From NCBI GenBank assembly GCA_945787015.1, contig CALZGM010000015.1:16232-80231 (forward strand): a stretch of DNA of 64,000 nucleotides. The letters run 5' to 3'. This document shows, piece by piece, positions 45,449-49,776 of this stretch (positions are counted from its first letter, which is position 1; every line of letters starts with the position of its first letter). The notes beneath the pieces were generated by a model, which saw only the letters and a program-made list of their open reading frames with translations, had not been told where the DNA came from and searched no databases. Position numbers and translations under genes: made by a program. This DNA comes from an uncultured Roseburia sp. Its GTDB lineage: Bacteria; Bacillota; Clostridia; Lachnospirales; Lachnospiraceae.

Positions 45449-46291
45449 TTATTTCCAATATACTTCCATATATTTCTCTGCTTCCTCAGATTTTACAGAG
45501 AATTTTTGAATCACCTTATCTAGGGTATCTTCTTTTGACACATTTAACTCCTGACAAGTTGTTATAAGAGCCTCTATCCCTTTCTCTATCCCTTGTTCAA
45601 TTCCAATCTCTAGAATGTTCATCTTTACTGCCTCCCATTCTTCTGATTCTTTGACCTCAGTTACTATCTTATCTAATGCAACAATCCGTTCATCTTTTAC
45701 CATAATCTCAGGATTGTCTATTCTTGTATCCTTCATATATTGTAACAGACTTACCAGCTCTTTGGAACCATTTTTACTACTCATATTCAAGAATATTTTT
45801 GTTGTCCCGTCTTCTAAATGTAGACCTTCAATTTCTTCGCATTGCTCTGTAAAAGTATACTTAGCTAAATCTTTTTTAAATATGTCATCTTGCGTAATAA
45901 AAATAATTATCGTTGATGGCAAATTCCTATATTTTGTTTCTTTTCCAGACTTTAAAATTGGTGTGTCTATCATGCCTTGATAATATCTGGCACGCTTTGG
46001 CATATGATCTTTATCCGCATGATTTTCCATCTCCATATTTACCTGTCTGTTATCTGTTGTTTCGCCCCACGCATCTAACCTAATTGCGCGCTTTCCATAC
46101 CCATTTAGTATAACCTGCTCAACTTTTACCTCTTTCATTTTTACATCCGGTTCATTCAAAATGATGCTGAGTGCATAACCATATGCTTCCTTATTCTTCA
46201 TAACAGATAAGAACAATGCAAAATCGCTTAAATTAAATCTGTAATCAACTGGAATATATGCTTTTTCCTGCATGTTTATAGTGTTTCCCAT
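45449..46291 (-). CDS. Rpn-family PD-(D/E)XK nuclease/putative transposase
   Basis: 280 residues. YRFNLSDFALFLSVMKNKEAYGYALSIILNE, then the nuclease core AIRLDAWGETTDNRQVNMEMENH (D-x(n)-ExE type), KRARYYQGMID, and the C-terminal GIEQGIEKGIEAL repeats. Rpn proteins are DNA endonucleases that promote RecA-independent recombination. ATG 46291 with GGGAGG nine bases upstream is preferred to TTG 46297. Complete, unlike the remnant at 22031. Confidence 0.85.
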   Translation of the reverse strand: MGNTINMQEKAYIPVDYRFNLSDFALFLSVMKNKEAYGYALSIILNEPDVKMKEVKVEQVILNGYGKRAIRLDAWGETTDNRQVNMEMENHADKDHMPKRARYYQGMIDTPILKSGKETKYRNLPSTIIIFITQDDIFKKDLAKYTFTEQCEEIEGLHLEDGTTKIFLNMSSKNGSKELVSLLQYMKDTRIDNPEIMVKDERIVALDKIVTEVKESEEWEAVKMNILEIGIEQGIEKGIEALITTCQELNVSKEDTLDKVIQKFSVKSEEAEKYMEVYWK

Positions 46292-46493
46292 AGGCAAACT
46301 CCTCCCGCAAATTAAATTTTATTGTTTTGAAAAATGGCGAATTGCCAAGCTGCCCTATACGGCATAGACTGAATGAATTAATTCTTTAATACATTCATAA
46401 AAAATCAACGAATATACCCACGTATAAATTTATTCATGAGTATATTAGAATTGATATTATAAATATATTAAAAAATACTATCATATGCAATCC

Positions 46494-46507
46494 CGAACAA
46501 ATATTCG
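46494..46507. promoter_or_regulatory. SOS (LexA) box candidate, upstream copy
   Basis: CGAAC-AAAT-ATTCG, one mismatch from the Firmicutes LexA consensus CGAAC-N4-GTTCG, just upstream of the -35 hexamer. Confidence 0.55.
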
Positions 46508-46515
46508 ATTTTATA

Positions 46516-46544
46516 TTGCAAATTTCTTCCATCTGTGTTACTAT
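46516..46544 (+). promoter_or_regulatory. Promoter of the putative SOS operon
   Basis: TTGCAA (46516-46521), 17-bp spacer, TACTAT (46539-46544). Predicted start near 46551, two bases before the downstream LexA box. Confidence 0.65.
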
Positions 46545-46552
46545 CTTTTTAC

Positions 46553-46566
46553 CGAACATCTGTTCT
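46553..46566. promoter_or_regulatory. SOS (LexA) box candidate at the start site
   Basis: CGAAC-ATCT-GTTCT, an exact GAAC-N4-GTTC core, located over the predicted transcription start and 16 bp before the ATG. Confidence 0.75.
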
Positions 46567-46581
46567 TTGGAGGTTTACGTT

Positions 46582-47637
46582 ATGTTAACTTATGGTATCG
46601 ATTTTGATGATGTATTAGCACCTTTCGTTTCCCATGCATGTGACTTGGCAAATGAAGAACATCCCGGCTTAGACGCCAGCCCAAAAGATGTTACCTGCTG
46701 GGGTTATTCCGGTAATGAAAAGATTGAAATTGTAAGTAAATATTACAGCGACGAGCGTGTCTTTGCGCGTCAGCAGATTCCCGAATCTGCAAAAGAGTTC
46801 ATTCACAAGCTCATGAAAAAAGGCCGCGTATACATTATTACCGCTGTCGCGCCTCAATTTATGGCACTTCGCGCGGCACAGATTAAAGAAGCCTTTCCCG
46901 ATTTTCCGGAAGAAAACATTATCATGGGAGCAAATAAGTCCCTGATTCAGTTTGACATCACCTTAGATGACGGACCGAATAATATTTTAAAATCCTGTGC
47001 CAGATTTCCGGTATTATTCCGGCAGCCATGGAACCGCTCCTTGTCCGGAATGCTTTCTGTGAATAACTATGAAGAGTTTTTCCAGCTCATTGAACAGATT
47101 AAATCTTCTTTAGTAGAAGATAAAAAGATTCCGCAGGTTCCGTCTGTGATTGCACTGGTTGGGCCTTCCGGTTCTAATAAAGGAGAGCTGGCAGCTGCTT
47201 TAGAAAAAAAAGCGTTTGCAAAGCGTATCTTTTCTTATTCCACGAACCTTTGCTTTGCTCACCGCTATATTTCCGAGGCAGAATTTGATTCTACAGATTT
47301 TATTGCGCAGACGGTATATGCCGGTACCAGGTATGGAATCTGCAAATCTGACATTGAAGAACATTTAAGCAAAACAGAAAATGTTACTATCGTAACGGAC
47401 ATCTGTGGCGCTGTTGCCCTAAAGCAAACCTATCCGACTCTCATCATTTTCTGCCGTAGAAGCAGGGAGCAGATGATTGAGTGTATTTTAGAAAAGGATA
47501 TCAGTAATGCCGAAAAGAAATGGCGACTGCTTTCTATGGAAAACGAGTTAAAAAATGAAAATTTGTGTGATTATGCAGTCCGCACGGAAAATGTAACTGC
47601 TGCTGCAGATTCCATTATGCTTCTCTTCGAAAAGTAA
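46582..47637 (+). CDS. 5'(3')-nucleotidase fused to a guanylate-kinase-like domain
   Basis: 351 residues. Residues 1-185 are a HAD-type 5'(3')-deoxyribonucleotidase (NT5C): motif I GIDFDDVLAPF, motif II region VYIITAVAP, and DDGP as motif IV. Residues about 198-345 look like guanylate kinase: VIALVGPSGSNKGELAAALEKK, FSYSTN, DIEEHLSKTENVTIVTD. The Walker A is degenerate (SNKG in place of SGKS/T), so kinase activity is doubtful. GGAGG precedes ATG 46582; the frame upstream to 46516 is inside the promoter. First gene of the SOS-type operon, so it may act on nucleotides released or modified during DNA damage. Confidence 0.75.
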   Translation: MLTYGIDFDDVLAPFVSHACDLANEEHPGLDASPKDVTCWGYSGNEKIEIVSKYYSDERVFARQQIPESAKEFIHKLMKKGRVYIITAVAPQFMALRAAQIKEAFPDFPEENIIMGANKSLIQFDITLDDGPNNILKSCARFPVLFRQPWNRSLSGMLSVNNYEEFFQLIEQIKSSLVEDKKIPQVPSVIALVGPSGSNKGELAAALEKKAFAKRIFSYSTNLCFAHRYISEAEFDSTDFIAQTVYAGTRYGICKSDIEEHLSKTENVTIVTDICGAVALKQTYPTLIIFCRRSREQMIECILEKDISNAEKKWRLLSMENELKNENLCDYAVRTENVTAAADSIMLLFEK

Positions 47638-47671
47638 AGCTGATTCATATTTGTAAATGGAGGTTGCCAGT

Positions 47672-49012
47672 ATGAGGATTCAGCAGAATATGTCCCTTAT
47701 GGAGAAGCTTGCCATCTTGTCTGATGCAGCTAAATACGATGTTTCGTGCACATCTTCCGGTGTTGACCGTAAAGGGAATGGAAAGGGCATGGGGAATTCG
47801 ATTGCAGCGGGTATCTGCCACTCCTTTTCCGCAGACGGCAGATGCATCTCTCTCCTTAAGATTTTATTTACCAACGAGTGTATTTTTAATTGTTCCTACT
47901 GTCAGAACAACTGTAATTCCGACGTTCTACGCGCCTCTTTCACCCCGGAGGAAGTCTGTGAGCTTACGTTAGAGTTTTATCGCAGGAATTACATTGAAGG
48001 GTTATTCTTAAGTTCCGGTATTATGGTTAGCCCAAATTACACCATGGACTTAATTTATCAGACCCTATACAAGTTAAGGGTAGAACATCATTTTAACGGT
48101 TACATTCACGTAAAAGCTATTCCGGGCGCCGACCCGCTTCTTGTAGAAAAAACCGGCTTTTTAGCAGACCGAATGAGCATTAATCTAGAGCTCCCTACCG
48201 CAGACAGTCTAAAAAAGTTAGCGCCCTATAAGTCCCGCAATACTATCCTAAAACCGATGCGTCAGATACAAAACGGTATTATAGAAAACAAAAATGAACT
48301 AATGGTTTACCGTAAAACACCAAAGTTCGTTCCCGCCGGGCAGAGTACCCAGATGATTATCGGTGCAACGCCGGAAAATGATTATCAGATTATTAGCGTT
48401 GCAGAAAGTCTTTACAATAAATTTGATTTAAAGCGCGTTTTTTACTCCGCTTTTGTAAATGTAACGAATAATTCTGATTTACCTGCCCTGCCCGGAGGGC
48501 CGCCACTATTACGCGAGCATCGTCTCTATCAGGCCGACTGGCTTTTAAGATTTTATGATTTTAAGGCGGATGAATTGTTGTCGGAGGACAGACCTGACTT
48601 TAACATATTTCTGGACCCGAAGTGTGACTGGGCGATTCGTCACTTGGAATGTTTTCCTGTTGAAATTCATACGGCAGATTATCATACCTTACTTCGTGTA
48701 CCGGGCATTGGTGTAAAGTCTGCCAAACGCATTGTGACAGCGCGACGTAACGGGCGGCTTGATTTTAATGATTTAAAGAAAATTGGTGTTGTATTAAAAC
48801 GAGCACTTTATTTTATCACCTGTTCCGGTAAAATGATGTACCCGACAAAGTTAGAGGAAAATTATATCTGTCAAAATCTGATGGCCGACAAGACACAGAT
48901 TCCAAAGGAAATCCGTGAAAGCGGTTATCAGCAAATAAGTTTATTTGATACAGAACTGGAGGGAAGTTTATGTATATCTTCATCTGCGAAGACAGCCTTG
49001 ATGGGATTTTGA
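47672..49012 (+). CDS. Putative DNA modification/repair radical SAM protein (TIGR03916-like)
   Basis: 446 residues. The radical SAM cluster is CIFNCSYC (CxxxCxxC) in LLKILFTNECIFNCSYCQNNC. The C-terminus has a helix-hairpin-helix DNA-binding motif LLRVPGIGVKSAKRIVTARRNGRLDFNDLKKIGVV. Front part MEKLAILSDAAKYDVSCTSSGVDRKG is characteristic of the family known only as a putative DNA modification/repair protein, always paired with a DUF4130 protein. GGAGG is 8 bases before ATG 47672. Its chemistry is not established. Confidence 0.88.
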   Translation: MRIQQNMSLMEKLAILSDAAKYDVSCTSSGVDRKGNGKGMGNSIAAGICHSFSADGRCISLLKILFTNECIFNCSYCQNNCNSDVLRASFTPEEVCELTLEFYRRNYIEGLFLSSGIMVSPNYTMDLIYQTLYKLRVEHHFNGYIHVKAIPGADPLLVEKTGFLADRMSINLELPTADSLKKLAPYKSRNTILKPMRQIQNGIIENKNELMVYRKTPKFVPAGQSTQMIIGATPENDYQIISVAESLYNKFDLKRVFYSAFVNVTNNSDLPALPGGPPLLREHRLYQADWLLRFYDFKADELLSEDRPDFNIFLDPKCDWAIRHLECFPVEIHTADYHTLLRVPGIGVKSAKRIVTARRNGRLDFNDLKKIGVVLKRALYFITCSGKMMYPTKLEENYICQNLMADKTQIPKEIRESGYQQISLFDTELEGSLCISSSAKTALMGF

Positions 49013-49776
49013 CAGGCATCTACGATGCCTGGACCTATAAAATACAACATAAGGAGATTGCTCATGATGACATCCGACTCGCTTCCTGTGAGCCGGAAAA
49101 TTATGAACTATTTAGTAACTATCTCCGTGTGGAACCCTCAGCCGAGAAAGCAGAAAAGGTCAGCCGTACCCTCTTTGGGAAATTAGGCAGCGAATTTTAT
49201 GAAGCCATTGTATATGCCGCTTTATCAAGAGAACCTGCCGGAAAGGCAGATATGGATAAGGCTGATGCCATTTATAAAACAGTTGTCCTTGCACTGCGCT
49301 CTTCTGCCGAAGAAAAGGTACTTCTCTATTTAGGGGAACCCTGCATTTTCCGCGTTTTTACTCTTTCCCGTGCAACGCATAATGAAGCGCATCACCTAAC
49401 CGGCTTTTTGCGTTTTTCCGAATTAAAAAATGGTGTATTGTTTTCTACCATACACCCCAAAAATCACGTCCTTCCGATTTTAGCAGAGCACTTTACCGAC
49501 CGTTTTCCACAGGAAGATTTTATGATTTATGATGAAACGCGCCAGCTTGCAGCCGTACACCGTGCCGGTAAGAATTTTATGCTGGTAGATGCCTCAGACC
49601 TAAATCAGGAGATTATTCATAACTATTCCGAAGAAGAACAGCAATTCCGTGATTTGTGGCTGACCTTCTTCGACAGCATTGCCATTAAAGCACGTATCAA
49701 TCCAAAGCTCCAGGCGCAAAACATCCCGAAACGGTTCTGGCCGGATGCATTAGAGCTGGCAAGAATGTCTTCCTAA
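48970..49776 (+). CDS. TIGR03915-like/DUF4130 DNA repair partner
   Basis: 268 residues. MYIFICEDSLDGILTGIYDAW, then the DUF4130 core THNEAHHLTGFLRFSELKNGVLFSTIHPKNHVLPILAEHFTDRFPQEDFMIYDETR. DUF4130 also occurs fused to uracil-DNA glycosylase-like proteins, supporting a DNA repair role. It overlaps the radical SAM gene by 43 bp with its own GGAGGG box, so the two are translated from one mRNA. Followed by a terminator. Confidence 0.88.
   Translation: MYIFICEDSLDGILTGIYDAWTYKIQHKEIAHDDIRLASCEPENYELFSNYLRVEPSAEKAEKVSRTLFGKLGSEFYEAIVYAALSREPAGKADMDKADAIYKTVVLALRSSAEEKVLLYLGEPCIFRVFTLSRATHNEAHHLTGFLRFSELKNGVLFSTIHPKNHVLPILAEHFTDRFPQEDFMIYDETRQLAAVHRAGKNFMLVDASDLNQEIIHNYSEEEQQFRDLWLTFFDSIAIKARINPKLQAQNIPKRFWPDALELARMSS

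Follow-up and report, generated by a model that had tools for sequence, protein, structure and literature searches.

Why does a gene for a phosphatase-kinase fusion protein stand between a LexA-type promoter and a radical SAM-DUF4130 gene pair, and do the three genes serve one SOS-induced function? The question is raised by an operon in a 64,000-nucleotide stretch of an uncultured Roseburia sp. of the Lachnospiraceae (GenBank assembly GCA_945787015.1, contig CALZGM010000015.1, positions 16,232 to 80,231), the whole of which is called the window here. The original prediction, drawn from the letters alone, had described an SOS-induced unit in which all three genes deal with an altered deoxynucleotide. 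Judging by the boxes of the operon and by established SOS biology, its control by LexA appears close to certain; the part played by the fusion gene is a more tentative matter.

The promoter combines a TTGCAA -35 element (46,516-46,521, plus strand) with a TACTAT -10 element (46,539-46,544, plus strand), which follows after 17 bases and has TGTGT in front of it. It is bracketed by a distal LexA-type box, CGAACAAATATTCG (46,494-46,507), and a proximal one, CGAACATCTGTTCT (46,553-46,566), 59 bp apart; no strand is assigned to the boxes, and each has 14 bases with one mismatch to the symmetric consensus CGAACN4GTTCG. All four elements have counterparts at aligned positions in congeners, the -35 element as TTGCAT and similar sequences. 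A GGAGG ribosome-binding site (46,569-46,573, plus strand) precedes the start codon ATG at 46,582, from which three plus-strand genes run: gene 1 (46,582-47,637; 351 amino acids), encoding an NT5C-type HAD phosphatase fused to a guanylate-kinase-like P-loop domain and referred to below as the HAD-kinase; gene 2 (47,672-49,012; 446 amino acids), encoding a radical SAM protein of family TIGR03916 with a helix-hairpin-helix region; and gene 3 (48,970-49,776; 268 amino acids), encoding a TIGR03915/DUF4130 protein whose predicted model is DHH (RecJ/Cdc45)-like. Genes 1 and 2 are separated by 34 bp, and genes 2 and 3 overlap by 43 bp. On rechecking, every coordinate that the original prediction gave for this arrangement proved exact, and the gene families it named are borne out by scores above curated cut-offs: 69.9 bits for gene 1 against NT5C (cut-off 24.8), 692.1 bits for gene 2 against TIGR03916 (343.5), and 220.3 and 168.2 bits for gene 3 against TIGR03915 (112.25) and DUF4130 (27).

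The host genome itself indicates what the boxes are likely to bind. With at most one mismatch, CGAACN4GTTCG occurs at 23 sites in the 3,305,552-base assembly, and the reversed pattern at 79; the surroundings of the 21 sites outside the window's own two were inspected in 19 stretches. Boxes cluster only at the operon and at lexA, which carries three (TIGR00498, 247.9 bits against a cut-off of 110.95). Another box lies near recA (TIGR02012, 575.3 bits against 325.3), and others near a PcrA/UvrD-like helicase gene and two DNA polymerase IV-like genes, in one of which the box is about 200 bp ahead of the listed start codon; the helicase and polymerase proteins, partial in the stretches examined, score under the curated cut-offs. 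Several further single-mismatch sites sit within genes or near unrelated ones and are chance-like. The LexA/SOS control claimed by the original prediction is strongly supported, because the host's own lexA, recA and polymerase IV-like genes share the box and because the box is kept at orthologous loci. As a separate observation, a LexA-like box, CAAACATATGTTCG, at positions 1268-1281 of stretch L006 (G000:C34:20867-20880), starts 24 bp ahead of a HisKA_3 sensor kinase gene that is followed by a response regulator gene; an SOS link to this two-component system is possible, as is chance.

Conservation was followed at 119 radical SAM loci in three tiers: 30 from the genus (the best 30 radical SAM matches, the window and its sister locus among them), 60 from the family (the best 60 of 112 DUF4130 matches above the cut-off) and 29 from the wider phylum (the best 29 apart from the window). 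Loci picked by best score leave divergent members under-represented. Left out of the box counts were L107 and L102, in which a HAD gene lies between promoter and radical SAM gene, and L121 and L156, with less than 100 bp upstream. If up to two mismatches are allowed, 26 of 27 loci from the genus, 54 of 59 from the family and 18 of 29 from the wider phylum have a box in the 250 bp that precede the radical SAM gene. For 29 control palindromes with permuted half-sites the corresponding averages are 1.6, 4.1 and 1.3 loci, and the highest counts 8, 13 and 5; the box is thus conserved across the family and less frequent beyond it. All 90 genus and family loci carry the radical SAM gene; in 59 of them, the 600 bp ahead of it contain a site with no more than one mismatch. 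The paired layout recurs as well: at least two boxes are found at 67 of 86 genus and family loci. In 34 of these 67 the pair closest to the gene has a spacing of 55-61 bp (controls: mean 0.24, maximum 3), and in another 23 a spacing of 23-36 bp. Among further genus loci, 16 of 22 have a box pair 50-64 bp apart, and in all 16 of these rows, which were chosen by that spacing, the pair encloses a TTG-type -35 and a TA-type -10 element with 17 bases between them, the latter mostly after TGTG, in otherwise unalignable flanks. This search of homologous loci, which the original prediction had named as a test of itself, returned boxes rather than none, and their conservation is good comparative evidence for the predicted repression by LexA.

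The two downstream genes form a common pair. Scores above the cut-off were obtained for TIGR03916 in 53 of 60 genomes of the genus and 91 of 398 of the phylum, and for TIGR03915 in 112 of 200 of the family; a Caulobacter control genome carries both TIGR03916 and TIGR03915/DUF4130. Where loci were picked by the radical SAM gene alone, a DUF4130 open reading frame lies on the same strand in all 30 genus and in 24 of 29 phylum loci. Over all tiers DUF4130 adjoins the radical SAM gene in 111 of 119 loci, a figure biased by the family loci having been picked by DUF4130. It was not seen in the examined stretch of the other eight (L142, L144, L159, L194, L195, L206, L208 and L216); in L142, L144 and L159, family loci found through DUF4130, the miss is an artefact of threshold or stretch. 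Two IMG/VR viral contigs (L219 and L220) also encode radical SAM relatives, 49% and 65% identical in the stretches that match, and may represent host sequence.

Gene 1 is a different matter, both as a protein and in its distribution. Its NT5C/HAD domain, defined by the profile match, covers residues 5-171 (46,594-47,094, plus strand), and the guanylate-kinase-like domain approximately residues 189-347 (47,146-47,622, plus strand), with the P-loop GPSGSNKGE. Residues D7, D9, T87, K119, D129 and D130, which we take to be the HAD catalytic residues, and the P-loop lysine K200 are invariant in 17 aligned rows. In the window and its sister neither residue after that lysine is Ser or Thr; several relatives deviate likewise, and many retain GSGKS/T. 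Because the HAD residues are invariant and the P-loop is altered in these two proteins, the phosphatase half is probably active and kinase activity is uncertain. Two guanylate kinases were matched among solved structures (E 4e-6). An active guanylate kinase in the window protein is nevertheless unsupported, given the altered P-loop, a score of 35.2 bits for the C-terminal half against the guanylate kinase equivalog, far under the cut-off of 160.45, and the lack of a Pfam Guanylate_kin match at E 0.01, a level reached by 14 of 17 members of the gene 1 family.

The full-length fusion of HAD and guanylate-kinase-like domains was found only within the window's family, where 8 of 200 genomes carry it, the window included. 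It is likewise present at full length in 31 of 60 genus genomes, again with the window, and one more genome has the gene in two pieces; across a sample of the order, gene 1 is matched at E 1e-20 in 19 of 196 genomes, full-length in only 2, both of the same family. Next to the radical SAM pair it stands in just 2 of the 39 genomes with the gene, the window and G258. Adjacency was judged from neighbourhoods or else from contig positions, and in many genomes the two genes are on separate contigs, where a contig break is possible. G258 is taken to be the same metagenome-assembled genome as the sister locus L099 (Roseburia sp. MAG RGIG7456), an identity that is itself deduced. Away from the pair, 23 of 24 HAD-kinase loci are free of boxes, even with two mismatches allowed, over the 175-250 bp that precede the gene, and one, L083, has a weak site. 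These 24 belong to a set of 37 genomes that have the gene elsewhere; the others in the set, outside this comparison, are 11 genus loci, G208 (gene in pieces) and L054, omitted from the P-loop and upstream-box comparisons as a near copy of L053. The rarity of the adjacency rejects a conserved three-gene system, and the boxless loci reject the HAD-kinase as a general SOS gene. The SOS part of the original prediction stands, and its joint three-gene unit is doubtful, the atypical kinase half being a further point against it.

The most credible rival explanation reserves the SOS function for the pair and treats the HAD-kinase as a passenger, a gene of routine nucleotide metabolism that a rearrangement placed behind the SOS promoter and that has no part in repair. 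Besides the rare adjacency and the altered P-loop, its neighbours elsewhere speak for such a passenger: named by eye from N-terminal sequences, for example as SurE-like or DHH phosphatase-like, they are not repair-like. The persistence of the arrangement argues the other way. The window and L099 have flanking genes in common on either side, and they agree in the order of the three genes and in the box pair, which in L099 is spaced by 55 bp, even though their synonymous sites are saturated: the proportions of synonymous differences (pS) are 0.734, 0.785 and 0.783 for genes 1, 2 and 3, and those of non-synonymous differences (pN) are 0.152, 0.054 and 0.113, so that gene 1, with a pN of 0.152 against a pS of 0.734, is under purifying selection in an arrangement kept in two lineages. 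Searches also found no second HAD-kinase copy in the genome. On balance, the passenger explanation is a credible one that falls somewhat short of being probable. Comparison of the loci shows that in this lineage the HAD-kinase has come between the pair and an SOS promoter older than the arrangement; in which direction the change ran is deduced. In what appears to be the simplest history, the pair had an ancestral SOS promoter, which captured the HAD-kinase in the common ancestor of the window and L099, after which selection kept the arrangement. At L055 and L056, in two other family genomes, the neighbours of the HAD-kinase are the SurE-like and DHH phosphatase-like genes, a possible pointer to the turnover of nucleotides or RNA.

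A second rival places the operon in RNA or cofactor metabolism, with SOS induction as a by-product of stress and the radical SAM enzyme acting off DNA. The protein encoded by gene 2 has the CX3CX2C motif at residues 70-77 (47,879-47,902, plus strand), its cysteines C70, C74 and C77 each being present in 113 of 118 aligned rows. Further conserved cysteines, C26, C49 and C58 (47,747-47,845) and C384 (48,821-48,823), suggest an auxiliary metal site or a hydrogen donor. By sequence its matches to solved structures are weak (best E 0.23). Among solved folds its model comes nearest to lipoyl synthase, HydE and viperin-like enzymes, which favours the metabolic rival, as viperins act on nucleotides. 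As for spore photoproduct lyase (SplB), no SPL family is among the profile matches listed at E of 1 or less and none is in the best 50 structure matches, which describes those listings rather than excluding kinship. Against the rival stand the helix-hairpin-helix region at residues 330-370 (48,659-48,781, plus strand), albeit below the Pfam cut-off, the LexA boxes kept across the family, and the LexA control predicted in other lineages for the pair or its probable relatives. Taken together, these points make a role outside DNA improbable.

The DUF4130 protein is approached mainly through its predicted model (predicted local distance difference test score 92.5). The top PDB matches of this model are DHH proteins, viral models show a like trend, and over approximately residues 1-224 it tracks the two-domain arrangement of RecJ, Cdc45 and NrnA, with moderate resemblance. 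This gives DUF4130 a structural hypothesis. Kinship with DHH proteins is unsupported by sequence: hhalign against small alignments of 5 NrnA-like and 6 RecJ-like proteins gave a probability of 0.1, below the radical SAM profile (1.5) and the HAD-kinase (0.2) used as controls, and neither DHH nor DHHA1 appears among 25 of the 26 Pfam families matched at E of 1 or less by 56 DUF4130 members. No conserved columns matching the DHH metal-binding motif were found in 56 or 110 aligned DUF4130 rows. Sequence searches returned no solved relatives of gene 3, and profile searches found no glycosylase domain in the window protein.

The weakest rival, that the boxes are chance occurrences or sites of another regulator, can point to the mismatch in each box and to the chance-like sites elsewhere in the genome, yet it is scarcely credible and, as regards chance, rejected by the genome counts, with box clusters only here and at lexA and sites at recA and the polymerase IV-like genes, and by conservation that beats the scrambled controls. 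A function in anti-phage defence was considered and dropped: at E 0.01 PADLOC matched neither gene 1 nor gene 2, and its match to gene 3 (13.1 bits, E 0.006) was disregarded. On the other side of the promoter, a gene for an Rpn-family recombination-promoting nuclease/putative transposase (45,449-46,297, minus strand; TIGR01784, 52.2 bits against a cut-off of 52.1) diverges from the operon; in L099 this spot holds other genes, one of them alkaline-phosphatase-like, below the cut-off.

The favoured explanation, a LexA-repressed, damage-inducible repair operon, is likely to be right as a whole, and its parts differ in firmness. LexA dimers on the two boxes flanking the promoter would block RNA polymerase, and RecA-stimulated cleavage of LexA would free it. 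A repair role for the radical SAM-DUF4130 pair is rather probable; to much the same degree, what is known of the family makes it plausible that the radical SAM protein docks on DNA, probably through its helix-hairpin-helix region, and performs radical chemistry on a damaged nucleotide there. It is tentatively proposed, from fold resemblance, that DUF4130 assists the radical SAM protein by binding DNA or ends of DNA, its model being somewhat RecJ/Cdc45-like in build and lacking a recognisable DHH metal site. The phosphatase half of gene 1 would probably handle mononucleotides during the SOS response, and the kinase half may have ceased to work as an ordinary kinase; that the HAD-kinase acts in the same pathway as the pair is conceivable and somewhat doubtful. 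In practical terms, the conserved boxes place a common gene pair among the damage-response genes of gut bacteria, indicating when to look for it, and the captured HAD-kinase is a clue to the kind of product that the pathway may release.

Comparison with known systems involves COG4277, which we take to be the helix-hairpin-helix radical SAM family. The papers compared here are represented by excerpts, to which the statements about them are confined. LexA control of CAC3343-CAC3344 was predicted in Clostridium acetobutylicum in 2013 (PMC3828012); the excerpt concerns two genes, with the HAD-kinase unmentioned and CAC3344 as a presumed DUF4130 protein. SOS control of a COG1573-COG4277 operon was predicted in Bacteroidetes in 2021 (PMC8565304); for the glycosylase system the same paper cites Verrucomicrobia and Alphaproteobacteria. 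That operon shares the LexA link with the window pair and differs in its LexA motifs and in the partner gene, which encodes a uracil-DNA glycosylase family protein instead of DUF4130. The evidence that the SOS response controls the radical SAM-DUF4130 pair is good, yet such control is not new in kind, having been predicted for C. acetobutylicum and, for a probable relative, in Bacteroidetes. Radical SAM proteins also belong to the Gram-positive core SOS regulon (PMC7739468) and, as vnz_31145, to that of Streptomyces venezuelae (PMC9380542); with the family unstated in these excerpts, they may or may not be TIGR03916. Raised expression of a gene named for a repair radical SAM protein is reported from Fusobacterium coculture and from desiccated Acinetobacter. 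The excerpt of a C. difficile LexA regulon paper (PMC4234289) contains no such operon, and the words uracil, radical, helix-hairpin and DUF were not found in the main text of a Caulobacter SOS paper.

DUF4130 itself has been tied to SplB-like radical SAM proteins and uracil-DNA glycosylases, as a predicted mutagenesis-related enzyme (PMC3765255); this is the sole paper found that names DUF4130, and its excerpt gives no fold, promoter or HAD-kinase. Searches under the TIGR identifiers and short names, or for UdgX with radical SAM, returned nothing. The literature searched, with subscription papers, supplements and RegPrecise-type regulon databases outside its scope, contained no family-wide double-box promoter, HAD-kinase insertion or DHH-like DUF4130 fold, and no assigned lesion or reaction for the pair. 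The original prediction had not recognised the combination as one already described, a judgement which holds in this literature for the three-gene set and fails for LexA control of the pair, already predicted (PMC3828012, PMC8565304). It is tempting to go further and to see in DUF4130 an inactivated RecJ/Cdc45-like clamp that presents damaged DNA or a DNA end to the radical SAM enzyme, with the lineage-added HAD-kinase processing the released nucleotide or the DNA terminus. This extension is unlikely as it stands; if true, the operon would encode an SOS-induced lesion-repair machine of an undescribed kind, in which the HAD-kinase would resemble polynucleotide kinase-phosphatase, both pairing a phosphatase with a P-loop kinase.

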